Assembly (NCBI GenBank): GCA_903913865.1
Contig: CAIWMU010000036.1
Location: forward strand, 1-32,733
Direction: 5' to 3'
DNA: 32,733 nucleotides
DNA from: an uncultured Verrucomicrobia subdivision 3 bacterium
Lineage (GTDB): Bacteria > Verrucomicrobiota > Verrucomicrobiia > Limisphaerales > UBA8199
Below, in pieces: positions 2,269-29,044 of this stretch. Under the pieces are notes generated by a model, which worked only from the letters and a program-made list of their open reading frames with translations, was not told the DNA's origin and did no database searches. The stretch's first letter is position 1; the number at the start of each line of letters is the position of its first letter. A program made the position numbers and the translations under genes.

Positions 2269-3477
2269 TCATTGCGGCAGGAGATCCCCTGGCACCCCGT
2301 TGCTCGGCCCCCCCAGGCCGTGAGATCTGCCAGAGGCTGGCACGCCACTTCGGTTAGCAAACCACCAAAAAAAAGCCCCCCGACTCAGCTTGCTCGCCAG
2401 GGTTTCTATCCCACGTTCGCCAGACCGGGGTCGCCTCCTTCCCCCAGTGTCTGATTTGCAGCAGCTTCCCCCTTGTGGAATGTGCTTCAGACGCTCAAGA
2501 TTTATCTTGGACAAATTTGACCCTTCGTGGTTGTGCAAGATCGTCGCCCCATTTCTAAGCAGTTTTTGATACTCTGATTTGGGCTCGCACTTGTATGTGC
2601 TCGAGTGCACATGGTTGTTGGTTAAATCGGGCAAATCAGAGATCGCATCATAAACTTTCGGTGCTGGCTTCATCATTGGCCGCATCAACTCCAAGAGAGG
2701 CAGACAAAGCTCCGATGCTCCAGTAAAATTCGCACGCGCCTCGGTGTAGTGGGTCGGCTCAGGCCATCCCGGCAATCTGCCGGTTCTGGACGCGATAAAG
2801 AACGTTCTGAACCGGAGCTGAGGGATGCCATAGTGCCCCGCAAACAGGATTTTGTGTTCAACTTTATAGCCAAGGCTTTCGATCGCTCGGTATATTGCTT
2901 TGACCGTACCACCTTTGTCAAAACTGACGATTCCTGGAACGTTCTCAATCAGGAGCATTTTTGGATGAAGAGCCTCAGCAACTCGAAGATACTCCAGAAA
3001 CAAATGATTTCTGCGATCGCTTGTTGATCGTAAGGGTGCGTTGATGGAGAAGCCTTGGCAGGGAGGCCCCCCGGCGAGCAAATCGATTTCCCCCTTCTTG
3101 AGACCCGACTGTTGGAGTATGTCGTCCGGGTCCAAGTCACGAATATCCTTACACGAGCAAACTGTGTTGGCGTGATTTCTTCTAAAGGTGGATGCATAGA
3201 CAGGCTCAAGCTCCGAGGCGTAGATCGGAGTGAATCCAGCCATCTCGAGTCCACATGAGAGGCCGCCAGCTCCAGCAAACAGATCAACAAAGTAGAGCCT
3301 CTCCCGACCGCTGTTAACCTTGGCAGGATACCCGGCAGGGTTTTCGCGTAGTATGAGATTGTCGTTTTGAGACTGAACCTCGGTGGAATTTGCGGTGCTT
3401 GAGCGGTTGACCACACGGGATCGATAGGTGCCCTTGCTTCGATGTTCTACTTTTGGAGTTTTTGGTTTCTTCTTCAT
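2269..3477 (-). pseudogene. C5-cytosine DNA methyltransferase, 3' end cut off by the IS
   Basis: Only 3477 down to 2454 is native; the rest of the open frame to 2269 is IS sequence. The first 341 residues contain motif I (DLFAGAGG), motif IV with the catalytic Cys (GGPPCQGFS), motif VI (ENV) and motif VIII (QLRFRTFFIA), then the start of the target-recognition region ending at HIPQGGS. Motifs IX and X, needed to complete the cofactor and DNA-binding fold, are missing, so methylation activity is most unlikely. I chose the ATG at 3477 (MKKKPK...) with AGGGG upstream; a TTG at 3528 gives 17 more residues and is less likely. The N-terminal 60 residues are basic and low in complexity, as in some restriction-system methylases. 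No restriction endonuclease gene is recognisable within the window; it could lie to the left. Confidence 0.85.
2440..2453 (-). repeat. Right terminal inverted repeat of the IS
   Basis: TCCCCCAGTGTCTG is the exact reverse complement of bases 9-22. It marks the junction where the methyltransferase coding sequence stops being native and reads into IS sequence. Confidence 0.8.
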
Positions 3478-4126
3478 CGCGCTCAGTTGCCCCTGAAGTT
3501 GATAAGGGTGAGTCTGCAAAGAAAGCAAATCACGCTTGGACAGCCATCATGGAGGCCCCCCTGCCCTGCCAAAAGGTGCAGGCCATCCGCCCATTTGCAC
3601 CTTACGTTTCTCACTACTAGATAGTCTGCCGAGTCCATGCGTTTGAACGACCGGTTGGCGCGAAACCGTGCGCCGCTTTGCAAAGGACCCGCCTCGCGTC
3701 CAGGTCGGTTGCGTCTCGCGCCACGACCTGTGTCAGGACCGATGCTCGAATCAAGGTCGCCGATGGGTGCATCCTCGCGGTGTCTCAGACTGCGCTCCTG
3801 GAGGCTGACAGGGCTGCCTGGCATCGCAAGAGGACGCAGGCGGTGTCGCCGCAACTCTGGTAGGATTGTGGTGCGAATCAGGGACATATCCGAGGGCTAA
3901 GTCTTATGTGTTTGCGGCCTGTGCGCAAGGGCTATTCGAAAAAATGCAGCGTTTCGCGCCTGGCCAGAGATAGCTCACGTCGCCCTTAAGATCGCTGTCG
4001 TCCCGATCCGCGTTCGCGTATTGGAACTACGATGCCGCTACTACCTCGCCTCACTCTCCAATGTGGAATAGCGCCTAGCAATGTCATCCGCCTCCGACCC
4101 GCATCGTTCTTGCGAGTCAACGCATC
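3478..4126. other. About 650 bases without a recognisable gene
   Basis: Open frames of up to 134 codons cross this stretch on both strands, but none shows a known motif, a hydrophobic segment or a good start site, and their arginine- and serine-rich products look like translated GC-rich noncoding DNA. The region separates the truncated methyltransferase from the glucanase pair and should hold the methyltransferase promoter. I see no RNA gene or repeat in it. It may be decayed remains of a restriction-modification locus, but this is a guess. Confidence 0.4.
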
Positions 4127-11196: not shown

Positions 11197-14100
11197 TCAA
11201 CTGAAGGTCACAACCAGTTCCGTGTTTGTCTTTAGGGTTGTCTCGGCGGCGAGAACAACCCTGGCACGAGTGCCAGTGACTTCGAAGGTGGCGGGGAGTG
11301 TGGATGATCCCAACTTCACCTCCACACGGCTCGGGATTTGACCTTCCCTCACGCCAAAAGCCAGCGTTTTGATCCGCAGACGGCCATATCTCACTGACAG
11401 GGTTTCGACCTGGCGTGCCCCCTCACGCACCTGCTGGAAGGTCCCCCACCCCTCCGCAGCGGTAAATGCCGATTTGAACCGCTCGGGCGTGATGCGGGGA
11501 TCAAACCCGATGTGCCTGCCGGGACCGTGATGCTCGTAACCACTGGCCGCGATGAAGCTCCCATGGCTGGACATCGCCCGGGTGTAATGATCGGAACATT
11601 CCACCTCGTTGTAGGGATTTCTTTTTGAGGCATGATGACGGTCATGCAGGATGCGGGTGATGATCATGGCAGGCTCAACCATCCCCTCCCAGATCATGTG
11701 TGCCGCCAATTGATGCTCCTGACCGGTCCAGACCTCGTTGAAATAATAGCCGAATCCGCTCTGACCCGCCGCCTGCTCGATACCCCCGCGCGGAAAGGTG
11801 GTCATTACAACGCCACCCTCACCCGCCATGGCATACCAGCGCCCTCCCTTGATGAACGACTCCTTGCGGTAGGGGCCGACATCCGGTGTGAAGTTATACT
11901 TCCAGATCGCCTGCAGCGCCGAGCGGGACTCGGCGGCTGGAATGACTCTGGGCAACCCGACCTGCATCGCCCATGCCTGGCCCATCAACTGGTCGATATG
12001 GCATCCATCGTTCGTGTTGGTGGCCTTCGGATGCTGGGGATCCGGTTTATGGATGAAAAACTCCCCGTTGTAGAGCTGCTTCACCAGTTCCTGGCTGCCA
12101 CGGCTCGCGATCCGCTGGCACTGCACGGCAAAATCGGTGTCGCCCAACTCCCGGGCCATCGCCTCCCCGGCGCGGAGTGCCGCCACATAGAAGGAACTGA
12201 TCCAGGCCATCGGGCCAAACCATGCGGCATCGAGGGTGTTGTATTGTTCCCCCTCAAGCAACCCATCCTCCCCGCCATCCAGCCCGATCAGGTATGAAAT
12301 GGATTTGCGGATTCTCGGCCAGCAGGCCCGGAGATAGCGGTCATCCGGGGCCATTTGATGCTCGCGCCAGGCCCTTAAAATCACCCCGCACTGACCATCA
12401 TGCGCCACGTGGCGGGCACACTCGCCCCGATAGTCAATCGCCCCGTTCTCGTGCCACGATGTGCCAAAATCGGTCCTCTCCCTGAGATCCCGCTCCAATT
12501 CCGGGAAGATGCGGGCGACAGAATGCGCATAATTCCAGACGTGCTGGCAGGTCCCCTCGCAGCAATAGACCCCCTCAAAGGCATAAAACCGGCCTGAGGT
12601 GAACTGGTAGCAGGTGCTCGTCGCCAGGGTGCAGATGGGGGCAAACGTGCGGTCCAGAAACCAGTATGGCAAAGTGGATTCATACCATGTCTTGTTCCAG
12701 AGCATTGTATCACCGGCGAGCCGTTTGTAGTCGCGGGCCACATAACGGGCCACCCCGGCGGCCGACTTGAACCGTGACGCATAGGACCGCCTGAGGGTTG
12801 CGAGGTCCTTCAGCGGACCCAGCCTCCGCCGGAGCAGGCCCGGGAAATGCCAGGCCACAACAAACACCACATCACCCTCCGCCCCGGAGGCCAGCTTGAG
12901 TTTCCGTCCCACCGCCCCAACCAGCTTTCCACCGGCGGAGAGCACTGCATCCTCCCGGCCGCCGGAAGTCATCTCGGCAAAGGCACCCTCGGCAAAGGGG
13001 GCGGAAACACGGGTCTGTGCAAAAGGATCAGACCCCTTCCCCACCAGCGCGATTCCCATCGACCCGTAATCCTCCCGCGCTTCCAGTGGCACGCGGGCGG
13101 CGGCCGTCTCATCCGTGAAGACAATCTGGTCCACATTGATATGGCCCCATCCCTCTGTGGAGTCGTCCACGATTTCAATCCGGCCGGTCCGCCCCTCAAA
13201 CTCGCTCACATCCCATTCCTGCCACGAGAGGGCCTCCGAATTGTGCCCGGTGGCGGTCCGGACCTGCCTGTCATCCACAAACAGGTTGATGCAGGTGCGC
13301 TTCGCCATGGCGCCGCCACCCACAAGAAAGGAGATGAATCGCCGCTCAATCTTGAAACCGGGGGAGGTCAACCGCCCCTTGGTGGAATCCCCGTCCAGGA
13401 ACGTGTTCACCAGCTTCTTGCCAAGGAAACCACTGACTGCCTGCTGCCCGGGCAGCGTGCCCTCAGCCGGGGCGGAGCCGAATGCCGTCCCCTCCGCCTT
13501 CCACGCCCCATAACCATTCTCGAAGGTCTCAAAGACAATCTCGGGACGGGATGGGGTTTGATCCCGATTTGGCAACGGTTCGACGGCACATTCCATGAAA
13601 GTCACCCCGCCATCCCTGCTGAGCCTGTTCCGACGCCGGGCCAACCCTCCGAGGCCGCTTCCGAGACAGACCGCATTCTCGATCCATCCAGACAATTCGA
13701 CCACCACGGCCTTTTGCGAATGGTTCTTCACAGAAAACCGCATCACAGTGGCAGGCAGCGACGAATCCGGCACGTTCAGCGGGATGAAAGGGGAAAAGGC
13801 CTCCAGAGCGATGGTGACCGGCAGTTCCGGATCGCGGTAATCCACGAACGCCACCGGGTATTGTCCCCGAAAAGTGATGTGCTTCGGATCAAACCCTCGG
13901 CTGTCCAGCACCCGGGTCTGCGCCCGGCCATCCGATTCGATCCTGATGCCGAACCCCTGTTCGATGGGCGATTCCGGCTTAGGGGGATGGGCATAATTGG
14001 GCCCGCCCGTGTCACTGAAATGGGAGGGCTGCGGGAGGTTGAAGATATCCCAGTGCCAGAGACGGCCGTCCCCTCCCAGGTAAAGCTGCCCGGCACAAAT

Positions 14101-14385
14101 GCCTCCGATCGGCATGCCGATGGTTTCCAGTTCCCCGCCCCGATATTCGGTTGGATTACCACGCTCCTGGATCAACTTCACCCAGGCCGGATCCAACCGC
14201 TTGTCGGCCGGGATCAGCTTTTCAAAATCGGCCCCTTCAAAAGGCCCGGCGATCGCCCCCATGCGGCTCGCCGTGGCACCTGCGACAGCAAGGCCCGTCC
14301 ACCGGATGAAGTCACGCCGCGTGAGCGGCTGGCTGCATCCGCAGGATGGGGAGTTGCACGATGATGATTCAGAGGGTGTATTCAT
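11197..14385 (-). CDS. Tat-exported GH116-type glycoside hydrolase with an inserted lectin-like module
   Basis: The 1062-residue protein belongs to the GH116 / DUF608 group (bacterial beta-glucosidases and GBA2-like glucosylceramidases). The N-terminus has a Tat signal (LTRRDFIRWTGLAVAGATAS, about residues 21-40). The GH116 N domain begins near GMPIGGICAGQLYLGGDGRL. The catalytic part holds CCEGTCQHVWNYAHS (about residue 610, probable nucleophile Glu) and NTLDAAWFGPM (about 719, probable acid/base Asp). The C-terminal region has YNEVECSDHYTRAMSSHG. Between residues about 278 and 425 lies an extra beta-sandwich-like module (FETFENGYGAWKAEGTAFG ... WGHINVDQIVFTDE) that I otherwise know from levanase-type and DUF1080-type proteins. 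It probably cleaves beta-linked glucosides or xylosides in the periplasm or outside; the substrate is not known. A putative TCCGG-N10-CCGGA palindrome lies in the 188-base upstream region. Confidence 0.85.
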   Translation of the reverse strand: MNTPSESSSCNSPSCGCSQPLTRRDFIRWTGLAVAGATASRMGAIAGPFEGADFEKLIPADKRLDPAWVKLIQERGNPTEYRGGELETIGMPIGGICAGQLYLGGDGRLWHWDIFNLPQPSHFSDTGGPNYAHPPKPESPIEQGFGIRIESDGRAQTRVLDSRGFDPKHITFRGQYPVAFVDYRDPELPVTIALEAFSPFIPLNVPDSSLPATVMRFSVKNHSQKAVVVELSGWIENAVCLGSGLGGLARRRNRLSRDGGVTFMECAVEPLPNRDQTPSRPEIVFETFENGYGAWKAEGTAFGSAPAEGTLPGQQAVSGFLGKKLVNTFLDGDSTKGRLTSPGFKIERRFISFLVGGGAMAKRTCINLFVDDRQVRTATGHNSEALSWQEWDVSEFEGRTGRIEIVDDSTEGWGHINVDQIVFTDETAAARVPLEAREDYGSMGIALVGKGSDPFAQTRVSAPFAEGAFAEMTSGGREDAVLSAGGKLVGAVGRKLKLASGAEGDVVFVVAWHFPGLLRRRLGPLKDLATLRRSYASRFKSAAGVARYVARDYKRLAGDTMLWNKTWYESTLPYWFLDRTFAPICTLATSTCYQFTSGRFYAFEGVYCCEGTCQHVWNYAHSVARIFPELERDLRERTDFGTSWHENGAIDYRGECARHVAHDGQCGVILRAWREHQMAPDDRYLRACWPRIRKSISYLIGLDGGEDGLLEGEQYNTLDAAWFGPMAWISSFYVAALRAGEAMARELGDTDFAVQCQRIASRGSQELVKQLYNGEFFIHKPDPQHPKATNTNDGCHIDQLMGQAWAMQVGLPRVIPAAESRSALQAIWKYNFTPDVGPYRKESFIKGGRWYAMAGEGGVVMTTFPRGGIEQAAGQSGFGYYFNEVWTGQEHQLAAHMIWEGMVEPAMIITRILHDRHHASKRNPYNEVECSDHYTRAMSSHGSFIAASGYEHHGPGRHIGFDPRITPERFKSAFTAAEGWGTFQQVREGARQVETLSVRYGRLRIKTLAFGVREGQIPSRVEVKLGSSTLPATFEVTGTRARVVLAAETTLKTNTELVVTFS

Positions 14386-14573: not shown

Positions 14574-17500
14574 GTGAAACACAAGAAACCAACGCGCAAG
14601 TCCTACCTCGCCAATCACCTCCCGACCCTCTACTTTGCCTTCATGAAGGCGATCCATCCTTGTTGGGTTCTTATGGCTTCAGGTCTGTCAGCCATGGCAG
14701 CCATCACAGGCCAGTGGGATTTTGAGAACGGCGATCTGGCGGCGACGATCGGCACCCCCCTGCAATATCGCGGCACGACGGCCAGCCAGACGCAGTTTGG
14801 CACCACGACCGCCTTCGGCATCGCCTCCATCAATGGCCAGGCGGGTCGCGTCATGCGCTTTCCAGCAACCACGGCGGGCCAGGGTTACATTGTGCCACAT
14901 GGTGCCCTCCCCAACGGATCCGGGACGAAGGTGAACCAATATACGGTGGTCCTGGACATTCTTTACCCCTCCAGCAGCACCGGCTACCGCTCCATCTGGC
15001 AGACCGACACCAACAACGCCAGTGATGGCGAGATTTTTGTCAATGGGGCCAACGGGATCGGCATCAACGGATACTACAATGGCAATCTTTCCCCGGATGT
15101 CTGGCACCGTGTGGCCTTCACCATCGACACGACACGGCGCGAGCTGGGAAAATATATCGATGGAACCAGTGTGCTATCCTCAGCGATTGGCTCCGCGCCG
15201 TTGGGAACAAACCGCATGCAATATCTGGACGCGACCCCCAGCGCGGTTGACGGCCGGTGGGCTCTGAACACAACAGCACTGCTTTTTGCTGATGAGAACA
15301 ACGAAACGGGTGTCGGGTATGTGAGCAGCATCCAGATCCATGATCGCGCACTTGCCCCCGAGGAGATAGCCCTCCTCGGCCTCCCGAATGCGGCGGGAAT
15401 TCAGAAATGGTCCGGCGCCGGAATCGCGCAGTGGGATTTCAACGGGAACCTTGCATCCTCAAGCGGTGGCGCGAGCCTGGCCCCCGGTGCCGCCGCCCCG
15501 GCCTCAACTCCCGCCATCGAATTCACAAACATGCTCATCAAGGGCCAGACGGCACAGGTCGCAGGCTTCACGCGTGGCACCTTTCTCCGGCTCACACATG
15601 GATTCCTGGCGAATGGGGGGGGCACTGCGATTAACCAATACACACTGCTCATGGATGTGATGTTCCCCTCCCGCCCGGGAGGCTGGGCGGCCCTCCTGCA
15701 AACGGCCCCGGGAAATAACAACGACGGGGACTGGTTCATCAATCCCTCCAACGGGCTTGGGATCTCCGGTGTTTACACGGGAAATGTCCCGGATGGAACC
15801 TGGAACCGGATTGCCCTCGTCGTGGATTGTGCCGCCGGAACCTACACCAGCTATCTCAACGGTTCCCAGGTCCAGCAAATCTCCGGTTTGAGCCTGGATG
15901 GCCGCTGGGCTCTGGACACCACAGCACTGCTCTTTGGTGACGAAGATCAGGAAAACGCGGCGGGTTTTGTCAACAGCGTCCAAATGCGGGACCGGGCCCT
16001 GACTCCGGCGGAACTCGCACTGTTCGGCGGCCCCGAGGCAGCGGGCATTCCCCTCCCCCTGCAACCCACAGGACTGCGAGTGGCAAGCCCCAACGGCAGG
16101 GAGGTTCTTTCCGCTGGAACAACCCAGACCATCACATGGTCAGCCGTGGACCCCGGCGGGCTGGTGAAAATTGATCTCCTGCTGGGGGACCTGTTGTATC
16201 GGGCACTGGGTCAGACCCTGATGCGCCAAAGCAATTTTGCATGGGCCATCGAGCCGAGGCTGGGCGATACCAACAACTACCGGATCCGGCTCACATCCCT
16301 GGATTTTCCATCCCTTCAGGATGCTTCGGATGCCGCGTTTGCGGTCACCAACTCTGGAATGCCCCCGAACCTCCTTTTCGGGCAACCGCTCCAGACCAAC
16401 GGCGGATTCGAGTCCGGTCTCGCCAACTGGCAGGTCGTTTCGGGACATCCGGTCACGATGACGGCCGCCGCCGGCAAAGGCTCGCCTGCCTCCGGCTCCC
16501 TGTTTCTCCACGGTGGATTGAAGCCGGGTGGCGACATGATTCTCCGGCAGGATGTGGATCTCCTTGCCGCAGGATTCACTGCCGCCGATCTGGATGGTGG
16601 CGCTGTTCTGGATGCATCCGCCTCCATTCGCAACGCATACGCCACCGGCACCTTTGACAGCCAGACTTCCCTTCGCGTGGCGTTCCTGGACTCATCCCGC
16701 GAGGAGATAGCCGCCAGCCGGAGCATGGTGGCGGGAACAGATGTGTGGCTTCGCCGCGGCACCACGGGACTCCTGCCCACCGGCACCCGGGCTCTGCGTC
16801 TGGAAATCATTGGCAACCACCGCCGGGATGCGGACAACAACAGCATGGCGGATGATGTGGTCGCTCGCATCCAGAGAGCCACAACACTCACGGCCCCAAC
16901 CATCACCAAGCTCCCCCTGCTTCAGGATTACCGTCAGGATGCGATGACCCTGCAGTGGGAGACGGATGGCAATCTGGCCACCCCCACCGTTGAGTGGGGC
17001 CCCTCAAATATCACTCAGCACACCCTCATGCGAATCGAAACCACCATGATCGATTCCACCCACTTCGTCCACCGCGCCACGCTGACCGGGCTCGCGCCCC
17101 AGACCCATTACACCTACCGCGTGTGCAACGGAGCCACCCGATCCCCCACCTACGCCTTCCGCACGGCACCCTACCGGAACACTCCATTTTCAGTAGCCTG
17201 GTGGGGGGATAGCCAGGTCGGCCCCACCACCCTGCATCAGATGATCCCTGACATGCTGACCCGGGGGGTGGACTGGACGGGAGCAGCCGGGGATGTGGCG
17301 TCCAGCGGGGCATCCCTCTATGACTGGCACAACTACTGGTTCGGGGCCCTGGAATTCCAGTCAATCGGACAAACCCATCCAGCCCTGTTCGCCAGGGGCA
17401 ATCACGATGGGGAACATCCCTATTCCTATGCCTACGGAGCCCTGCCCGGCAACAGTTCCTGGTATGCCTTCGACTATGGAAACTCCCGATTCATCTTTCT

Positions 17501-18173
17501 GGATACCGAGGCAAGCACATCCGCATCCCCCGAACAATACACCTGGCTGGTCAATGAACTGGGCCGTCCGGAAACCCGGAACGCGGCGTTCCGCGTGGTA
17601 TGCTTCCACAAACCTCCCTTCGCGAACCTGTGGAATGGCGGCGGCTACACGGGTGAGGGCTGGGTGAGAAACGATTGGGTTCCCCTGTTCAGCCAATACC
17701 ACGTCGATGTGGTCATCAACGGCCACGCCCACAATTACAACCGGGGGGTGACCAACGGGGTCACCTACGTCGTCACAGGCGGCGGCGGGGGCGAGGTGGA
17801 CACCGAACGGGTCGCGTTCTGGCCGCTCTTCACCGTTGAATATTCCAGTCACCACTACGATCTGATGCACATTGATGCCAACCAGCTCATCTGGGGAACC
17901 TATGACACGACAGGCCAGCAACTCGATGCGTTTACCCTGACGAGCCGGGTGCCTCAATTGAAACTCCAGAGGAGGGATTTCCGGACGGCCACACTGGTCC
18001 TCCAGGGCAAACCCGGGGAGACCTACGTTTTGGAGCGGGGCTCCACGCCCACAGACTGGGCCGCCTACAGCACCAACACCATCCCCACCCCGAACTCCAG
18101 CCCGGCAGCGATCACAAACATGATTCCACTCGGGGAGACGCAATACTATTTCCGTGCACGTGTGCAGCCATGA
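14574..18173 (+). CDS. Exported LamG-containing purple-acid-phosphatase-like metallophosphoesterase
   Basis: This protein of up to 1199 residues is exported: a signal starts at MKAIHPCWVLMASGLSAMAA (ATG at 14643). The GTG at 14574 adds 23 residues and is less convincing, but is kept as the outer limit. Two LamG-type domains follow (about 14706-15400 and 15428-16065), both with GRWALDTTALLF-like text. Then come an Ig-like V-x-x-P-N-G-R-E-V-L domain, a NGGFESGLANWQV carbohydrate-binding-like domain and a fibronectin-type domain, as in purple acid phosphatases. The metallophosphoesterase core (about 17185-17930) shows WWGDSQVG, AGDVASSG, RGNHDGE, CFHKPP and INGHAHNYNRG, giving all five metal-binding blocks. 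A C-terminal domain ends in YYFRARV. It should hydrolyse phosphoesters at the cell surface, perhaps while bound to a polysaccharide; the binding role is inferred. Confidence 0.85.
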   Translation: MKHKKPTRKSYLANHLPTLYFAFMKAIHPCWVLMASGLSAMAAITGQWDFENGDLAATIGTPLQYRGTTASQTQFGTTTAFGIASINGQAGRVMRFPATTAGQGYIVPHGALPNGSGTKVNQYTVVLDILYPSSSTGYRSIWQTDTNNASDGEIFVNGANGIGINGYYNGNLSPDVWHRVAFTIDTTRRELGKYIDGTSVLSSAIGSAPLGTNRMQYLDATPSAVDGRWALNTTALLFADENNETGVGYVSSIQIHDRALAPEEIALLGLPNAAGIQKWSGAGIAQWDFNGNLASSSGGASLAPGAAAPASTPAIEFTNMLIKGQTAQVAGFTRGTFLRLTHGFLANGGGTAINQYTLLMDVMFPSRPGGWAALLQTAPGNNNDGDWFINPSNGLGISGVYTGNVPDGTWNRIALVVDCAAGTYTSYLNGSQVQQISGLSLDGRWALDTTALLFGDEDQENAAGFVNSVQMRDRALTPAELALFGGPEAAGIPLPLQPTGLRVASPNGREVLSAGTTQTITWSAVDPGGLVKIDLLLGDLLYRALGQTLMRQSNFAWAIEPRLGDTNNYRIRLTSLDFPSLQDASDAAFAVTNSGMPPNLLFGQPLQTNGGFESGLANWQVVSGHPVTMTAAAGKGSPASGSLFLHGGLKPGGDMILRQDVDLLAAGFTAADLDGGAVLDASASIRNAYATGTFDSQTSLRVAFLDSSREEIAASRSMVAGTDVWLRRGTTGLLPTGTRALRLEIIGNHRRDADNNSMADDVVARIQRATTLTAPTITKLPLLQDYRQDAMTLQWETDGNLATPTVEWGPSNITQHTLMRIETTMIDSTHFVHRATLTGLAPQTHYTYRVCNGATRSPTYAFRTAPYRNTPFSVAWWGDSQVGPTTLHQMIPDMLTRGVDWTGAAGDVASSGASLYDWHNYWFGALEFQSIGQTHPALFARGNHDGEHPYSYAYGALPGNSSWYAFDYGNSRFIFLDTEASTSASPEQYTWLVNELGRPETRNAAFRVVCFHKPPFANLWNGGGYTGEGWVRNDWVPLFSQYHVDVVINGHAHNYNRGVTNGVTYVVTGGGGGEVDTERVAFWPLFTVEYSSHHYDLMHIDANQLIWGTYDTTGQQLDAFTLTSRVPQLKLQRRDFRTATLVLQGKPGETYVLERGSTPTDWAAYSTNTIPTPNSSPAAITNMIPLGETQYYFRARVQP

Positions 18174-18320: not shown

Positions 18321-19793
18321 TTGGACGAACCACCCAAGCTAATCAATAATTTTCCTCGATCCACTCAACCCAACCGCATCGAACCCGGCAGGCTTGAACG
18401 GGCAGGCCCGGAACGATACCATTCGCCACCAGCAAACTTGAAAACCAGACGAACCCGAACAAAACTGCGTGGCGAGAACCTGAGCGCATGCGAACTGCCG
18501 CTCGGCTTCAACACCCCACCCCCCGAACCCGATCCCCTGCCGGAGCCCATCAAACCGATGGACTGGGCCGACTTTGTGGAGGATGTGCGGAGTTTCAAGG
18601 AATTTGGTGCCCCAAGCCGTGAGAGTGTCACCTCCTACATCGCGCCCGATGGCGAGGACGCGGGAGCACCCACCTACACCAACGAGTTTTGGACCGCCCG
18701 GCAGCGCCAGGCATCCTCGCTGCACGAAATCTCCTACCGTGCCTGCTTCAAGCCCCAGTTACCCCGCTTTTTCATCGAAAGGCTCACACGCCCGGGGGAT
18801 GTGGTTTATGACCCCTTCATGGGACGTGGCACAACCCTCGTGGAATCGGCCCTCCTCGGGCGAATCCCATACGGGAACGATGTGAACCCGCTCAGCCTCG
18901 TGCTGGTTAAGCCCCGTCTTCATCCCCCCGGCCTTGATGCCATTCAACAGCGGTTGGATCAAATCCCTTTGGATGACCCGGCCGACACCCCGGAGGATCT
19001 GCTGGCTTTTTACCATCCCAAAACCCTCGCAGGGCTCGGTTCCTTGAAAAAATATTTTCTGACCCGCGTGCAGGATGGTACTCTGGATGAAACGGACGAC
19101 TGGCTTCGGATGGTCTCGCTAAACCGCCTCACGGGACACTCCCCCGGTTTTTTCTCCGTTTACACCCTGCCACCAAATCAGGCCGTTTCGGTCAAATCGC
19201 AACTCCGCATCAACGAGCGCCGCAACCAGGCCCCACCTGAGCGCGACATCCGCTCCATCCTCCTAAAGAAGAGCCGCCAACTGCTCGGGGATGTTTCCCC
19301 AAAAGCCCGGACCACCCTCACATCAACGAACCATGCTGCCAGGCTCTTCAACCGCCCAGCCGATGACACGACAGGAATCCCCTCCAATTCAATCTCGCTG
19401 GTGGTCACATCCCCACCCTTTCTGAAGGTGGTCCAGTATCAGCAGGACAACTGGCTCCGTTGCTGGTTTCTGAACATTGATCCCGCATCTGTCCGGCTGA
19501 CCATGGACTCCAACCTGCCCGCATGGGAGGCCTCCATGAACCGGGTGTTCCGGGAACTCGCACGCGTGCTGAGGCCGAATGGGTATGTCGCTTTTGAAGT
19601 GGGTGAGGTGGACAGGGGAATGATCCAGCTGGAAAAAACGGTTCTCAGCTGCGGCACCAGAGCCGGGCTTACCCCCCTCCTCGTCCTCATCAACGACCAG
19701 GAATTCACCAAGACCGCGAATTGCTGGGGTGTGGACAACATGAAATCCGGGACCAACACAAACCGCATTGTTGTATTCCACAAGGCTCCCTGA
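18321..19793 (+). CDS. Orphan DNA methyltransferase, N4/N6 (amino) type
   Basis: The protein has the SAM-binding motif DPFMGRGTTLVE (about residue 164, FxGxG type) followed by GNDVNPLS, and the catalytic motif TSPPF (about 363). This order, motif I before motif IV, fits a beta- or gamma-like class; SPPF in place of SPPY is a conservative change of the catalytic aromatic. Text such as SVTSYIAPDGEDAGAPTYTNEFW and SSLHEISYRACFKPQLPRFF matches homologous DNA methylases I know from bacteria. The start is uncertain: TTG at 18321 gives 490 residues, but the first 50 or so residues look noncoding, and the first ATG (MDWADF) is at 18558. No endonuclease neighbours it, so it may be a solitary epigenetic methylase. 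It begins 18 bases from the tRNA-Ser gene and is divergent from it. Confidence 0.82.
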   Translation: MDEPPKLINNFPRSTQPNRIEPGRLERAGPERYHSPPANLKTRRTRTKLRGENLSACELPLGFNTPPPEPDPLPEPIKPMDWADFVEDVRSFKEFGAPSRESVTSYIAPDGEDAGAPTYTNEFWTARQRQASSLHEISYRACFKPQLPRFFIERLTRPGDVVYDPFMGRGTTLVESALLGRIPYGNDVNPLSLVLVKPRLHPPGLDAIQQRLDQIPLDDPADTPEDLLAFYHPKTLAGLGSLKKYFLTRVQDGTLDETDDWLRMVSLNRLTGHSPGFFSVYTLPPNQAVSVKSQLRINERRNQAPPERDIRSILLKKSRQLLGDVSPKARTTLTSTNHAARLFNRPADDTTGIPSNSISLVVTSPPFLKVVQYQQDNWLRCWFLNIDPASVRLTMDSNLPAWEASMNRVFRELARVLRPNGYVAFEVGEVDRGMIQLEKTVLSCGTRAGLTPLLVLINDQEFTKTANCWGVDNMKSGTNTNRIVVFHKAP

Positions 19794-19877
19794 TGTTCAG
19801 CCAGGGCCGGATGGGTGGGTGGGCTGGAAATCGAATCGAGTTGCGTCAAAAGCCCTTTGCCCGATCATGCTGTCGTG

Positions 19878-22800
19878 ATGTCGTCATGCCGTTTGTTTGC
19901 TTGGGTTCTGCTGCTCAGCGGAGCTGTCTCTTTTGGAGCATCGCCGCATTTGCGAGGGGATCTCGGCGCGCACGACCCCTCCACCATCATCAAGTGCAAG
20001 GACCGCTACTACCAAGTTGTCACAGGCTACAGCATCAAAACAAAATCCTCGGCCGACAAGGTCTTCTGGAAATCCGGCCCTCCCGTTTTTTCAAAACTCC
20101 CCTCATGGACGACCAACGCCGTCCCGGGATTTGACGGCACAGTCTGGGCGCCGGACATCATCTACTTCGCAAACGCCTATCGTGTCTATTATGCCATTTC
20201 CACCTGGGGCAGCCAGACCTCCGCAATCGGCATGGTCTCCACCCCCACGCTGGATCCAACCGACCCTGCCTATGCCTGGACCGACCACGGTCCTGTGATC
20301 CTGTCCAGCACCACAAGCCCCTATAACGTCATCGATCCCAGCCTCGTGCTGGACGCCTCGGGAAATCCATGGATGTGTTTCGGATCTTATTGGACCGGCA
20401 TCTACGTCGTGCAACTGGATCCCGTGACCGGCATGAGAATCTCGGCGGACAGCCCAACCACCCAACTCGCCTACAACAGTTCCATCGAAGCCTCATGCCT
20501 GTTTCATCGGGGCGGATATTATTATCTCTTTGTGAACTACGACTCCTGCTGTTCCGGTGTGAACAGTGGTTACAACATCCGCGTGGGCCGCAGTTCGACG
20601 ATCACAGGACCCTATTTTGACAGGGCTGGACGGGACCTGAGGAACGCGGGCAACACATTGTTTCTCGAGGGCACGGGCAAGTTCACCGGACCGGGTCACG
20701 CGGGTATTCTCTCGGAAGGAGGGCGTCAGTATTTGAGCTACCATTATTATGACGCCAACGCCTACGCCCCCTGGTATGGAGCCTACGGCCCCGCCCGGTT
20801 TGACCTCGTGCCGCTCGCATGGACTGCGGACAACTGGCCCGTTTATACGAACGATTGGTCGGCCCTCTACAACTTTGAATTCGATGCCACCGATGATCAC
20901 GGCCAATACAGCGGCATGCTCCGGGGCACAGCCCGCACGGTGCCGGATCCCACATACGGCCGGGTGCTCTCCCTTGAGGGCACCAACGCCTCGGTGGAAC
21001 TCCCTCCCGGAGTGGCCTACGCAAGGACCTTTAGCGCGGTCGTCAAATGGAGCGGTGGCGCTCCCTGGCAACGGATCTTCGATTTCGGAACGGACACTTC
21101 GCGCTATGTGATGCTCACCCCGGCCTCCGGCGACAGGCACCTGCGCTGCGACATCCGCACCGGAGCCACCTACTCGATCGATGCCCCCACCGCCGTTCCA
21201 ACCAACCGCTGGACGCATGTGGCTGTCACCTTCGATGACCAGCGCGGCATCCTCTACCTCAACGGTGCCCCGGTGGCCACCAACTCATCCCTGCCGGTCG
21301 CACCCCTGTTGGTCCGTGCGCAAACAAACCATCTCGGCCGCAGCAAATTCGCGGCGGATGCCAATTTCAACGGCCTCATCGCCGGGTTCCGGGCCCATGG
21401 CCGGGTGCTGAATGCCCAGTCCATCACCGCACCGGAGGCGCGCATCGAGCTTCCGGATTCAAAATCGACCTTCCTGCCGGGCACCCGGGTGATCCTTCGA
21501 GGCTCGGGCCGCGACTTCATGCTCACGCCCCTGGGCCCATCCTCCTGCCAGTGGCAGATCGACATCATCCGAAATGGGCGGACCAATGTCCTGAGTCCGC
21601 TCCTGATCGGCATGACGAATACATCGTTCCTGGTCCCCACCAACACCCCCGGTGATGCCACCCTCCAGGTGAGGTTGCTCGTCACCGATTCGATCGGGCG
21701 CAAAACCACTGCCGTGGCAATGGTTCCCTCTGCCAATCCAACTCCCGACTGGGATGCCCGGCACCCCCTCCAGTCCAATGCACTGGATGCCCGCGGTGGC
21801 ACAGCGGGACTGCTGCTGGGTGGTGCCTCCTTCACAAATGATCCCGACCGGGGCCAGGTGTTGCAACTGACCGGGAGTGGCCAATATGTCCAACTGCCGC
21901 AGGAGTCCTCAAGGTTCATGACCTTCTCCGCCTGGGTGAAATGGAGCGGAGGGGCGGACTCGCAGCCCGTCTTCGATTTCGGAACCGATGCAAACCGCCA
22001 TTCCGTCCTGACGCCCCGGGCGGCGGGAGGAAAACTGCGCTTCAACATGACCCTGCGCGGAGTTCCCGGGGACCAAATCATCGAAGCCCCCTGGGCCCTG
22101 CCCACGAATCTCTGGGTCCATCTCGCCGTGGTTCTGGACGGCAGCCGGGGCGTTCTCTACACGAACGGCACCCCGGTGGCGACCAACGCTGCGCTGAATC
22201 TCACTCCGGAAAACCTCGGGGCCACCAATTTCTTTCTCGGCAGAAGCCTGGGCCCGGATCCCTACTTCAGGGGATTCATCAGTGGTGTGCGCCTCACCTC
22301 CCGTGCGATCCCGGCGGCCCAAATCCTCGCACCGCTTGCCGAAATTTCATCCCCGGGCCCCGGCAGGGGCTGCGAACCGGGACAGACCATCTCCTTCTCC
22401 GGTTCCGCCCTGGATTACCGGGACAGGATGATCGCACCAACGGGAATGACATGGACAGTGCGGCATATCCTGAACGGGGTCACGAACACGGTGCTCGGCC
22501 CCGTTCAGGGGGTATCAAGCGGGTCCTACACGGTTCCCCTCTCGGGCACGATGTCCACAAACGGACTGTATCGCTTCACCCTCGAGGCTGTGGACGTGGA
22601 GGGTAGAAAATCCACAAATTGGGTGGATCTCCTCCCGCTCGCCTCAGTCTCATCCGCAGGAGTGGAGTGGCAGTCTTTTTATCCCTTCACCCTGGATGCC
22701 CGCGATGCTAGTAACCGGTTTGCTGGCACTCTGAACGGGGGGGCCTCGGTCCAGATCGAAGCGATTCGCTCCCGTGTATTAAACCTTTCGGGCACTGGCC

Positions 22801-24014
22801 AATATCTCAGCCTTCCCACCGGGAGCAGTTCGGCCCAGACGATCTCCAGCTGGGTGAAATGGCGCGGCGGCGCGGCCTGGCAACGGATTTTCGATTGGGG
22901 GGTGGATACGGAGCACTGGTTCTATTTCACACCGTTCAACGGAGGCGGAAACATGGAGTGCGGCATCACATCCGACTCGACGAGCTTCGCCCATTACATG
23001 CAACCGAACGCCCCTTTCCCCCTGAATGTCTGGACCCATGTGGCCGTTTCCCTCAACGGCCGCGAGGCTGTGGTTTACACAAACGGAGTCCCCGCCATCG
23101 TCAACAACGCGGTTTATGTGCTGCCTTCCGACCTTGGCGCCACACGTGTCTGGTTCGGTCGCAGCATGTTCCCCGCCGATGCCTACTTTAACGGACAGTT
23201 GGACTCGATCCAGATGAACAGTCTCGGACTGGATTACGAGACCCTCTTCGCACCCACGCCCGCCATCCTCCAACCCACTGCCGGATCCTCTTTTGCAGGC
23301 GGGGATGCCATCAGCTTCAGCGGATCAGCCAGTGATTTTGCCGGGAATGCCATTCCTGTGACGAATTGGAACTGGTCTGCGTCCCTGGTTCAGGACGGTC
23401 AGGTTTCAACGGTCGCCGGAGCCTGGAGCAACGCCGCCACGGGGACGTTGACCATTCCAGGGACCGGCCCGACTTCAACGAACGTGCAATACCGGCTGGC
23501 TCTCACCGCAAGCGCAACGAACGGGATCTCCTCCACCACATCTCTGGATATCAGCCCCAAAGTCCTTCCTGTAAGCTTTGAAACCGCACCTTCGGGACTG
23601 CAGATCACTCTCGATGGTTACCCGACCCAAACGCCGGTCACAGTGCCTATGGTTCAGGGGTGGTCCAGGGAGGTCTCCGCCCCCGCCTCCCAGCTGTTCG
23701 CTGGGAGCAATTATTTGTTCGTGGCCTGGTCGGATCTGGGGGATCCGACCCACCGGATCAGCCCCCTGCCCGAAAAAACAAACCATGTCGCCGGGTATGT
23801 CCGCCCCACATTGGCGTTGGGTTCAAGGGATGGACAACTCGCACTGCAATGGCCCGGATGGGCGGCCGGGATGCCCGTTTACCGTGCGGAAAGCCTCCCG
23901 AGCCCCCCGCAGGCGTGGATCCGCCTCACGAACACAGCCGGGTACTCAAACGGCCTTTCATCCCTCATCCTGCCCCGCGGGACCCCGGCAGGTTTCTACC
24001 GGCTCGGCATGTGA
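19878..24014 (+). CDS. Secreted GH43 endo-arabinanase with three LamG + Ig-like units
   Basis: The 1378-residue protein has a signal peptide (MSSCRLFAWVLLLSGAVSFG) and a GH43 five-bladed propeller, residues about 25-340. The catalytic residues are D33 in AHDPS (base), D153 in VIDPSLV and E204 in SIEASC (acid). This pattern and text such as GTVWAPDIIYF and YDSCCSG point to arabinan endo-1,5-alpha-L-arabinosidase. Three tandem units of about 300 residues follow, each a LamG domain (starts near 20863, 21763 and 22681; repeated words VKWSGGA and FDFGTD) and an Ig-like domain. A final domain ends in PAGFYRLGM. The ATG at 19878 starts the signal peptide; a GTG at 19815 opens the same frame upstream. 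LamG modules would hold the enzyme on the polysaccharide; this is an inference. The palindromic element at 24016 follows directly. Confidence 0.88.
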   Translation: MSSCRLFAWVLLLSGAVSFGASPHLRGDLGAHDPSTIIKCKDRYYQVVTGYSIKTKSSADKVFWKSGPPVFSKLPSWTTNAVPGFDGTVWAPDIIYFANAYRVYYAISTWGSQTSAIGMVSTPTLDPTDPAYAWTDHGPVILSSTTSPYNVIDPSLVLDASGNPWMCFGSYWTGIYVVQLDPVTGMRISADSPTTQLAYNSSIEASCLFHRGGYYYLFVNYDSCCSGVNSGYNIRVGRSSTITGPYFDRAGRDLRNAGNTLFLEGTGKFTGPGHAGILSEGGRQYLSYHYYDANAYAPWYGAYGPARFDLVPLAWTADNWPVYTNDWSALYNFEFDATDDHGQYSGMLRGTARTVPDPTYGRVLSLEGTNASVELPPGVAYARTFSAVVKWSGGAPWQRIFDFGTDTSRYVMLTPASGDRHLRCDIRTGATYSIDAPTAVPTNRWTHVAVTFDDQRGILYLNGAPVATNSSLPVAPLLVRAQTNHLGRSKFAADANFNGLIAGFRAHGRVLNAQSITAPEARIELPDSKSTFLPGTRVILRGSGRDFMLTPLGPSSCQWQIDIIRNGRTNVLSPLLIGMTNTSFLVPTNTPGDATLQVRLLVTDSIGRKTTAVAMVPSANPTPDWDARHPLQSNALDARGGTAGLLLGGASFTNDPDRGQVLQLTGSGQYVQLPQESSRFMTFSAWVKWSGGADSQPVFDFGTDANRHSVLTPRAAGGKLRFNMTLRGVPGDQIIEAPWALPTNLWVHLAVVLDGSRGVLYTNGTPVATNAALNLTPENLGATNFFLGRSLGPDPYFRGFISGVRLTSRAIPAAQILAPLAEISSPGPGRGCEPGQTISFSGSALDYRDRMIAPTGMTWTVRHILNGVTNTVLGPVQGVSSGSYTVPLSGTMSTNGLYRFTLEAVDVEGRKSTNWVDLLPLASVSSAGVEWQSFYPFTLDARDASNRFAGTLNGGASVQIEAIRSRVLNLSGTGQYLSLPTGSSSAQTISSWVKWRGGAAWQRIFDWGVDTEHWFYFTPFNGGGNMECGITSDSTSFAHYMQPNAPFPLNVWTHVAVSLNGREAVVYTNGVPAIVNNAVYVLPSDLGATRVWFGRSMFPADAYFNGQLDSIQMNSLGLDYETLFAPTPAILQPTAGSSFAGGDAISFSGSASDFAGNAIPVTNWNWSASLVQDGQVSTVAGAWSNAATGTLTIPGTGPTSTNVQYRLALTASATNGISSTTSLDISPKVLPVSFETAPSGLQITLDGYPTQTPVTVPMVQGWSREVSAPASQLFAGSNYLFVAWSDLGDPTHRISPLPEKTNHVAGYVRPTLALGSRDGQLALQWPGWAAGMPVYRAESLPSPPQAWIRLTNTAGYSNGLSSLILPRGTPAGFYRLGM

Positions 24015-26191: not shown

Positions 26192-29044
26192 TCAGATCGA
26201 AACACCGTGCTTCTTGAGGGCCTTCTTCAAGGCGTCCATCGCGGCGTGGAATTCACCGGACTTGATGCACCGCTCAAACTCCACATGGCCATCATGGGGG
26301 AAGGCTGAACGGAACGTCACCTTGTTGTCCTTCCAGCAGTCCTTCGCCCCCGGATCACCATCAACCAGCAGCGGCACGATGATCGCCACAGCCTTGCGCA
26401 GGGTCGGCAAATCGACCGCAACTGCCTGCACCGCCCTGCCACCGGAGGGCTTTTCCTCGCGCAGGTTCAAGGCCGCCTTCAGATCCATGATCAACGCCCC
26501 GAGAACCCCCTCCATCTCGGCCCAAATCGCCTCAATGTCACCCGGCTCGTAATGGTCATGAATCGCCCGCTCAAGAGTTGCCGCCGCACCATTTGCGGCC
26601 ACCGCGCCGATCTCCCCGGACTCCGTCTTGAGTGACCGGACCACCCGCCCGGCCTCATCAAACTCACCCCGCTCCAGCGCATTCCGGACCTTGATCGCTG
26701 AACCGGCCTGATGCTCCACGAATTGTGCCAGTTTCTGGAGATAGAGGACAGGATCCCCATCTGCCCAGGCCAGACCGTCCGCTGTAACCAAACCCTCGAC
26801 CACTGGCATATCCACCGGCTCCGCAGCATCCTCCTCAGGCACCGCCGGATTGGCCGCTTCCTCCACAGGAGTCTCGATCTGCACTTCCTCCGTGACCTCC
26901 TCCGGTTCAATGCCTGGGTCCGTGGCGGCTGGCTCGCTTTCGACGCTCTCCACCACTGTCTCCTTCAGGGGGGGCGGCGGCTCAATGACGGATTCAGAAC
27001 CCAATGGGGTCCCGGCTTCCAGCACTTCATCACGTTCCGGCTCGGGGGCAACCACCGGCGCCCCGAAAAGGTCCATCTGATCATCCCTGCGAACTTTTTT
27101 CCGCCGCGCCGGTTTCAGAACCGCTGCAGGCTCCAGTTCCGCAGCCACGACCGCCACCGGCTCCGTTGCTGCCCCGGTGATCTGAGCCACGGACTCCTCC
27201 CCAACAAGCACAACCGGCCCGGCATCCTCCTCCACGCTTTCGACCACAGCCTCAGTCGCAGGCTCAGGTTCCACCTTGGATTCGGTAACCGGCCCGGCCT
27301 GGTCTTCGGGCACTGGTGCCACTTCCTGAATACTCTCCTCAATTTCGTTGGAGGATTCCTCTGCTGCGGGTGGCTCGTTCAAAAAAACCAACTCCTCGAT
27401 AGGCTGAGCAGGGGCTTCCTCGGGAACCGGGGTTGCAACTGCCATGGCACTGCGTGCGGCAAGTTCCCCCTCCCTGAGGGCGATGGTGGCGAGGGCCTCC
27501 TCAAAATCTCTTTTGGATGCAGACAGTTCCGTGGCAAGTTCCGAAACCTGCCTCCTGTAAGATTCCAGTTCCCTCTGTCTGGCCTCCAGCTCCCCGGTAG
27601 TGAGCTTCGCCGTCACTGCCTGCTGTGCCTGAACAGCGGCACCCGCCGCTTCAGCCTTCTGCGCTGCCTCGAGCAGGGTCCCAAGATCTTTCATCTCCCG
27701 TGCCATCCGCGCGAACTCCTTTGCCCGCAGCGCCTCCGATTCCTTCCCGGCCCGCACCGCCTCATCCAGTCGCTCAGTCGTTTCACGGACCTGCTCCAGG
27801 GCCGCTGCAAGAACCGCAGCGGATGCCTTTTCGCCGGCCTCTCTGGCGCTGACCGCCTTCTGACTCTCACGCAAAGCGGTCTCCAGCCGCAGTTGCAGTT
27901 CCGCAGAGGCCTTTTGGGATCTGGCCAGATCCTCACGCAGAGCCGCCCCATCCTGCCGGGCCTTGAGAAACGCCTGCTCTGTCAGCAACTGGGTCTCCCT
28001 GTGGTGCGCCGAGGCTTCCTTGAGATTGGTGTTTGCAAGTTCCAGTTCCGCCTCCAGTTTTGCCTGCGCATCCTTTGAAGCCCGGGCCTCCTGCTGGGCA
28101 AGCCCCTCCGCGCGGGTGACCTGACGAAGTTGCTCCTGCATCTGCAGGAGATCCGCATCCAACCCACGAAGGCTCTGGAACAAATTCACGACCGCACACA
28201 ACAATCCGGCAACGAACAGTGCCAGCAACAGTTCCGCACCCGCACGCCAGACATCGAACCATCCACCGACAGGCTCCAACGCCAGGCGGAATTCCAGTGA
28301 ACCCACCCGGATGCTTTGTTGCACGGCACTCCCAAGCCGCAAACCATCCGTGCCCACCAACGCCTTGTATCCCCGGGTTTCCGCCAAAGCGGGCAGAAGC
28401 GCATACTTGTATCCCCTGCGGCGCACATCATCCAGACGGGCCCACTCGGCAACGTCCTGAAACCGGACTGAAACGGCCACAAGGCCCCAGAAACTCTCCA
28501 CCCCGTTCCGCGCCCGCTCGAAAAGGGGCACCCGCACCACCAACCCCTTGCCGCCACGCATGTCAACCGGCCCGCAAACAGTGGTCTGCCGTCTCTGGAT
28601 GGTTGCCGCCACCCCGGCAGCCTGCCTGGGATCTGTCCGCACGTTTACCTCCAGCAGGTGCTCGTTTCCATTCCTGGGCACCACATCCCGCACCACCCCG
28701 GAGGGCTGCAGTTCAATCGCTGCAAGTGCGGGCCGCGTCGCGAGCAATCCGGCGGCAACGCCGGCAAAGCCCGGAATGCCACCACCCACCGCCTGCCTGC
28801 CATGAACAGCAAGGATGTCGGCTGCGGAGAGTGCCTGCTGGAGCTGGGTCTCCATCAGTGCCGCGCGCGCCTGCACCTCGACCCGCGCCTCGTAACGATG
28901 GTCCTCCAACCGGTTGACAGCCCTCCACACCACCAGCCCCACACCGGTGAGCAGGGCCACCACCAGCACGACAATCGCGGGCCGGATCAACGGTGCGGAC
29001 CGGGGTGCCTCCCCGCCAGCCTCGGGCAATTTGAACATGTTCAT
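26192..29044 (-). CDS. Membrane CHASE-domain protein with coiled coil and degenerate Hpt domain
   Basis: The 950-residue protein has a transmembrane helix at about residues 19-41, a periplasmic CHASE-like sensor (about 45-265; IELQPSGVVRDVVPRNGNEH and FWGLVAVSVRF), and a second helix at about 268-290. A long Ala/Glu/Gln-rich coiled coil (about 290-540) and a Pro/Glu/Val-rich acidic linker (about 540-770) follow. The C-terminal 170 residues look like the Hpt domain and tail of hybrid kinases (RSLKTESGEIGA; LPTLRKAVAII; EFHAAMDALKKAL). The phosphorylatable His of the usual HSLKG motif is Arg (R803). No histidine kinase, receiver or output enzyme domain is present. A signalling scaffold or decoy is my inference. 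It starts at ATG 29044, 48 bases after the symporter gene, and may sense a ligand linked to that sugar system. Confidence 0.8.
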   Translation of the reverse strand: MNMFKLPEAGGEAPRSAPLIRPAIVVLVVALLTGVGLVVWRAVNRLEDHRYEARVEVQARAALMETQLQQALSAADILAVHGRQAVGGGIPGFAGVAAGLLATRPALAAIELQPSGVVRDVVPRNGNEHLLEVNVRTDPRQAAGVAATIQRRQTTVCGPVDMRGGKGLVVRVPLFERARNGVESFWGLVAVSVRFQDVAEWARLDDVRRRGYKYALLPALAETRGYKALVGTDGLRLGSAVQQSIRVGSLEFRLALEPVGGWFDVWRAGAELLLALFVAGLLCAVVNLFQSLRGLDADLLQMQEQLRQVTRAEGLAQQEARASKDAQAKLEAELELANTNLKEASAHHRETQLLTEQAFLKARQDGAALREDLARSQKASAELQLRLETALRESQKAVSAREAGEKASAAVLAAALEQVRETTERLDEAVRAGKESEALRAKEFARMAREMKDLGTLLEAAQKAEAAGAAVQAQQAVTAKLTTGELEARQRELESYRRQVSELATELSASKRDFEEALATIALREGELAARSAMAVATPVPEEAPAQPIEELVFLNEPPAAEESSNEIEESIQEVAPVPEDQAGPVTESKVEPEPATEAVVESVEEDAGPVVLVGEESVAQITGAATEPVAVVAAELEPAAVLKPARRKKVRRDDQMDLFGAPVVAPEPERDEVLEAGTPLGSESVIEPPPPLKETVVESVESEPAATDPGIEPEEVTEEVQIETPVEEAANPAVPEEDAAEPVDMPVVEGLVTADGLAWADGDPVLYLQKLAQFVEHQAGSAIKVRNALERGEFDEAGRVVRSLKTESGEIGAVAANGAAATLERAIHDHYEPGDIEAIWAEMEGVLGALIMDLKAALNLREEKPSGGRAVQAVAVDLPTLRKAVAIIVPLLVDGDPGAKDCWKDNKVTFRSAFPHDGHVEFERCIKSGEFHAAMDALKKALKKHGVSI

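Follow-up and report, generated by a model that had tools for sequence, protein, structure and literature searches.

A kinase-less CHASE receptor family of Limisphaerales with a conserved motif of the sliding-clamp-binding type

RESULTS

Genomic localization and architecture of the 950-aa protein

The window, that is, the whole stretch of DNA analysed (32,733 nucleotides), comes from an uncultured Verrucomicrobia subdivision 3 bacterium of the order Limisphaerales. It carries a DDE transposase gene (Pfam DDE_Tnp_1) at 526-2190 on the plus strand, which places an insertion element near its left end. A C-5 cytosine methylase (Pfam) is encoded at 2272-3528 on the minus strand and a type II DNA methyltransferase (PADLOC, E=2.9e-173) at 18321-19790 on the plus strand. 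Large probable glycan-related proteins are encoded at 11200-14385 (minus strand), 14574-18170 (plus strand) and 19815-24011 (plus strand); their types are a GH116-like enzyme, a purple-acid-phosphatase-like protein with LamG domains and a GH43 protein with LamG domains.

The gene under study encodes a protein of 950 aa and was found once in its own 6.27-Mb draft genome by a full-length search. In order, the protein consists of a CHASE-fold sensor between two predicted transmembrane helices, a helical stretch, an acidic linker, an Hpt-fold bundle and a post-Hpt module. The features are as follows.

26192..29044, minus strand: whole open reading frame, 950 aa plus stop, intact and uninterrupted
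28913..28981, minus strand: first transmembrane helix, about aa 22-44 (hydropathy of 2.56 at the aa 14-44 peak; AF2 helix from aa 22)
28259..28915, minus strand: sensor with CHASE fold, periplasmic by prediction, about aa 44-262 (Pfam PF03924 and structural match)
28166..28252, minus strand: transmembrane helix 2, aa 265-293 (hydropathy peak 2.39; AF2 helix 262-309)
27440..28162, minus strand: extended helical region, probably a coiled coil, aa 295-535 (0% Pro; 3.5-residue period in patches; weak SMC-coil match)
26810..27439, minus strand: linker rich in acidic residues and Pro that does not align, aa 536-745, with 14% Pro and a net charge of -44 (composition and alignment)
27065..27106, minus strand: basic stretch and clamp-binding-type motif RRKKVRRDDQMDLF, aa 647-660 (12 of 12 members)
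27065..27079, minus strand: QMDLF, aa 656-660, the pentapeptide of RRKKVRRDDQMDLF
26450..26809, minus strand: His-less Hpt-fold four-helix bundle, aa 746-865 (AF2 model; Hpt structures best, Z 14.7)
26636..26638, minus strand: codon of R803, which occupies the place of the phospho-acceptor His (alignment with hybrid kinases)
26195..26416, minus strand: helical module after the Hpt bundle, conserved and ending in a basic tail, aa 877-950 (retained where the Hpt bundle is lost)

A CHASE-fold sensor without kinase or receiver domains

Searching the Pfam profiles with aa 1-315 revealed a marginal match to CHASE (PF03924; 25.8 bits, E=1e-5, cut-off 25), and the full protein scored 23.6 bits against the same cut-off. 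A CHASE match was obtained for 8 of 10 members of the family described below. The AF2 model of aa 1-310 (pLDDT 83) had the CHASE sensor domain of AHK4 (Protein Data Bank entry: 3t4j) as its best structural match (Z 17.8, 207 residues, 2.8 A) and also resembled other Cache-type sensors. These results bear out the CHASE sensor proposed in the initial annotation. Because the hydropathy peaks at aa 14-44 and 265-293, taken as two transmembrane helices, flank the sensor, the rest of the protein is predicted to be cytoplasmic.

HisKA, HATPase and receiver domains, already reported as missing by the initial annotation, were not detected by Pfam profile search in the 950-aa protein, in any of the 10 members or in the PAS-bearing relatives L086 and L087, so that their absence is lineage-wide. 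A sequence search of the PDB with the full protein returned no matches, and PADLOC returned none for this protein. NCBIfam gave a single weak match, to an SMC coil (E=0.0045).

The stretch between the second transmembrane helix and the Hpt bundle had been described as about 480 residues of coiled coil and acidic linker. Its length is about 450 residues, and the acidic linker was recovered. The coiled coil is only probable, since the 3.5-residue periodicity of aa 295-535 was patchy and confined to local windows and the global Fourier test gave no signal; it is supported by this patchy periodicity and by composition (no Pro, 3% Gly+Pro). With 26% Asp+Glu, the linker that follows is probably disordered and, from the topology, cytoplasmic.

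The Hpt-fold bundle has lost the phospho-acceptor His

Profile search of the C-terminus detected Hpt (PF01627) only at 13.3 bits (E=0.1), below the cut-off of 24.6, whereas structural comparison was clear. The AF2 model of aa 746-950 (pLDDT 78) adopted the four-helix Hpt fold and matched the Hpt structure 3myf best (Z 14.7, 114 residues, 2.6 A), and the first 15 rows of structural matches were all Hpt proteins. When the protein is aligned with 14 hybrid kinases that have a homologous C-terminus, R803, part of VRSLKTESGEIGA, falls on the His of AHTLKGVAGNIGA; all 14 carry His at this position. In the eight kinase-less relatives with a complete Hpt bundle the acceptor position is occupied by R, R, R, S, Q, Q, Q and D. 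The initial annotation was therefore right about the missing His, and the window copy is not simply a mutated one, His being confined to the hybrid kinases (0 of 8 kinase-less copies). Arg itself occurs in three of the eight. The C-termini of the kinase-less proteins and of the hybrid kinases were separated with 100/100 support (midpoint root, which does not give the direction of change).

The Hpt bundle was among the less well conserved parts of the protein, with a mean column score of -0.1 to -1.3 over most of its length, and the bundle is absent in three relatives (L034, L035 and L038). The non-His residue in all complete copies and the loss of the bundle in these three indicate that the His was lost early and throughout the family and that the bundle is expendable. 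The same three relatives retain the post-Hpt module, roughly 70 residues long, with 35-57% identity, so that this module probably has a function of its own. No Pfam name was found for it.

A family of kinase-less relatives in Limisphaerales

The search for relatives began with 58 related genomes and was widened to 320 Limisphaerales genomes, in which 12 kinase-less relatives were identified, including the window protein; these 12 span several families and have no stop inside the match. Since their distribution is patchy (12 of 320 genomes), the role of the protein is not essential. Gene order at the 12 loci shares only phosphofructokinase, and only within the genus; the sugar-use gene group, which the initial annotation had given as the context, was for this reason abandoned as a functional clue. 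No replication or repair gene was recognised among the conserved neighbours at the 12 loci.

Two relatives, L087 (1636-5391, minus strand) and L086 (1-3201, minus strand), have CHASE, PAS domains after the sensor, a His-less Hpt and QLSLF or QMSLF, and lack the kinase. The L086 gene is split between two contigs, and its acceptor position, aligned by eye, is apparently Gly. These two proteins are possible intermediates between sensor kinases and the form found in the window. A contig-end fragment (L100, G012:C377:2995-3525) was nearly identical to the N-terminus of the orthologue in G003, a genome of a different genus, possibly as a result of contamination of the draft genome or of recent transfer.

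The linker carries a conserved motif of the clamp-binding type

The most informative part of the linker had been overlooked in the initial annotation. All 12 kinase-less relatives contain, exactly once per protein and in an otherwise unalignable linker, a basic stretch with Q[L/M/I][S/D/N][L/F]F after it. The window protein has the version RRKKVRRDD-QMDLF, and its linker peptide containing QMDLF is KPARRKKVRRDDQMDLFGAPV. The pentapeptide variants across the 12 proteins are QMDLF, QMDFF, QIDLF, QMNLF, QLNLF, QMSLF and QLSLF, with Q1 and F5 invariant. Conservation peaked at aa 642-660 (mean BLOSUM +2.5), whereas most other linker columns scored -1 to -3.7. From the composition of the linker (14% Pro, 26% Asp+Glu) and its failure to align, the motif appears to sit in an exposed, flexible segment.

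Shuffling of the 255 aa around the motif recreated the pentapeptide at P <= 1e-4 in each member; the members are related, so these values are not to be multiplied across them. A product of the shuffle probabilities (10^-51) was accordingly dropped as evidence. The codons of the motif vary synonymously between members, and the motif is thus conserved at the protein level. It was absent from about 20 hybrid kinases with homologous CHASE or Hpt parts and from CHASE proteins of other lineages (G435 and G611). The pattern [DN][DN]Q.[DN].F occurred 14 times in the 58 related genomes. Eight of these occurrences are orthologues of the window protein; the other six are antisense or short spurious reading frames or a folded peptidase, and none of them has the basic stretch.

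Bacterial clamp-binding motifs follow the consensus QL[S/D]LF or QxxLF, position 3 being preferably D or S, and QLDLF has a KD of about 6.9 nM for the Escherichia coli clamp (PMC12309361). QMDLF fits this consensus, and the motif of L087, QLSLF, is an exact copy of it. QMDFF, found in L030 and L035, departs from it at position 4, and the strongly basic run before the motif lies outside the published consensus. The genome of the window encodes a canonical DnaN with the C-terminal VVMPMRL seen in solved clamps, a MutS whose C-terminus ...APAPQLDLFT carries a clamp-binding motif (L113, G000:C160:51223-51237) and a DnaE with an internal QSSLF. On the grounds of sequence, the QMDLF-type motif is predicted to bind the hydrophobic pocket of the beta sliding clamp (DnaN).

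DISCUSSION

Relation to known systems

The window protein belongs to a receptor family akin to those CHASE/PAS sensor kinases that carry an Hpt module at the C-terminus. The hybrid kinase L088 (CHASE-PAS-HisKA-HATPase-REC-Hpt) comes from the order Limisphaerales as well and has a sensor homologous to that of the window protein, and other hybrid kinases have homologous Hpt and post-Hpt modules. In contrast to these kinases, the window protein lacks HisKA, HATPase, the receiver and the His and adds a clamp-type motif that the kinases do not have. Arabidopsis AHP6 is likewise an Hpt-type protein in which the acceptor His is replaced (PMC3572949). AHP6 is described as a phosphotransfer-type protein, whereas the pseudo-Hpt of the window family lies at the tail end of a membrane receptor and is missing altogether from some members.

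Clamp binders beyond polymerases and repair enzymes do exist, as E. coli CrfC and Caulobacter SocB demonstrate. CrfC, a nucleoid partition factor, positions clamps and nascent DNA by means of a clamp-binding motif (PMC6374313). It belongs to the dynamin-like GTPases and has no typical membrane-binding motif, whereas the window protein is a CHASE transmembrane receptor; a dynamin-like GTPase was not matched by Pfam in the 950-aa protein or in the 10 members. SocB is a clamp-binding inhibitor of replication, and the likeness is that in both cases the clamp pocket would be occupied by a clamp-binding motif (PMC9690074). SocB, however, is the toxin of a toxin-antitoxin pair, and a sensor or membrane part is not described in that review (PMC9690074). 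MutS and DnaE share the kind of motif with the window protein, but both are soluble DNA enzymes. A membrane receptor or kinase with a clamp-binding motif was not found in the open-access literature, within the limited cover of that search.

Candidate functions of the family

The reading we consider fairly probable is that these proteins form a kinase-less transmembrane receptor family of Limisphaerales in which the output is docking of the sliding clamp instead of phosphotransfer and the pseudo-Hpt is structural. The signal-dependent scaffold suggested in the initial annotation is compatible with this architecture, given the confirmed CHASE sensor and the missing kinase and His. Decay of a hybrid kinase into a protein without function of its own would explain the loss of kinase, receiver and His as well as the patchy distribution. 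It is very improbable in view of the 12 relatives spread over several families, all stop-free within the match, of the conserved sensor, motif and terminal module, and of the synonymous nature of the codon changes in the motif. A role as competitor, in which the His-less bundle would bind the receiver domains of other relays and damp them, had also been put forward and has a precedent in AHP6, a pseudo-HPt without His that inhibits cytokinin signalling (PMC3572949). The Hpt fold has been kept although the His is gone from all complete copies, and several of the genomes concerned (e.g., G001, G009, G011 and G051) also encode hybrid kinases with a homologous Hpt. As the main role, competition is nevertheless improbable: the bundle is poorly conserved and missing in three members that keep the linker motif and the terminal module, the LKG surface around the His position diverges too, and the window's own genome yielded no second match to the full-length protein.

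A stronger contender, though still an unlikely one, is that the motif docks a partner other than the sliding clamp, e.g., a nucleoid, division or polarity protein, and that the protein is another kind of signal-dependent membrane scaffold. Pentapeptides can be kept for different partners, the basic run foreign to the clamp consensus is conserved along with the pentapeptide, and clamp binders do not usually sit in the membrane. On the other side, the substitutions that are tolerated (L/M/I, S/D/N and L/F, with Q and F invariant) suit a clamp motif, one relative has QLSLF itself, and MutS and DnaE of the same genome bear motifs of like kind.

Under the clamp-docking reading, the CHASE domain would bind a ligand outside the cell, and the signal would pass from the sensor through the second transmembrane helix into the helical stretch, a long rod that may provide reach and dimerisation. 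The linker would present the motif to DnaN, while the basic stretch may contact DNA or the acidic linker. Assembly or the binding of a second partner may be the task of the pseudo-Hpt and the terminal module. If the motif binds DnaN, the membrane receptor would act on the clamp and its riders by tethering, sequestering or recruiting them, putatively under control of the CHASE ligand. The likeliest outcome would be that replication or repair traffic near the membrane is tuned by an outside small molecule. That the receptor senses such a molecule and signals directly, without a kinase, to the replication and repair machinery through the sliding clamp is a tentative proposal, with somewhat less than an even chance of being correct.

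If the motif binds the clamp, the protein would be, to our knowledge, the first membrane sensor wired directly to the hub of the bacterial replisome. A single protein would then carry an outside signal through to replication or repair, and a phosphorelay module would have found new use as a scaffold.
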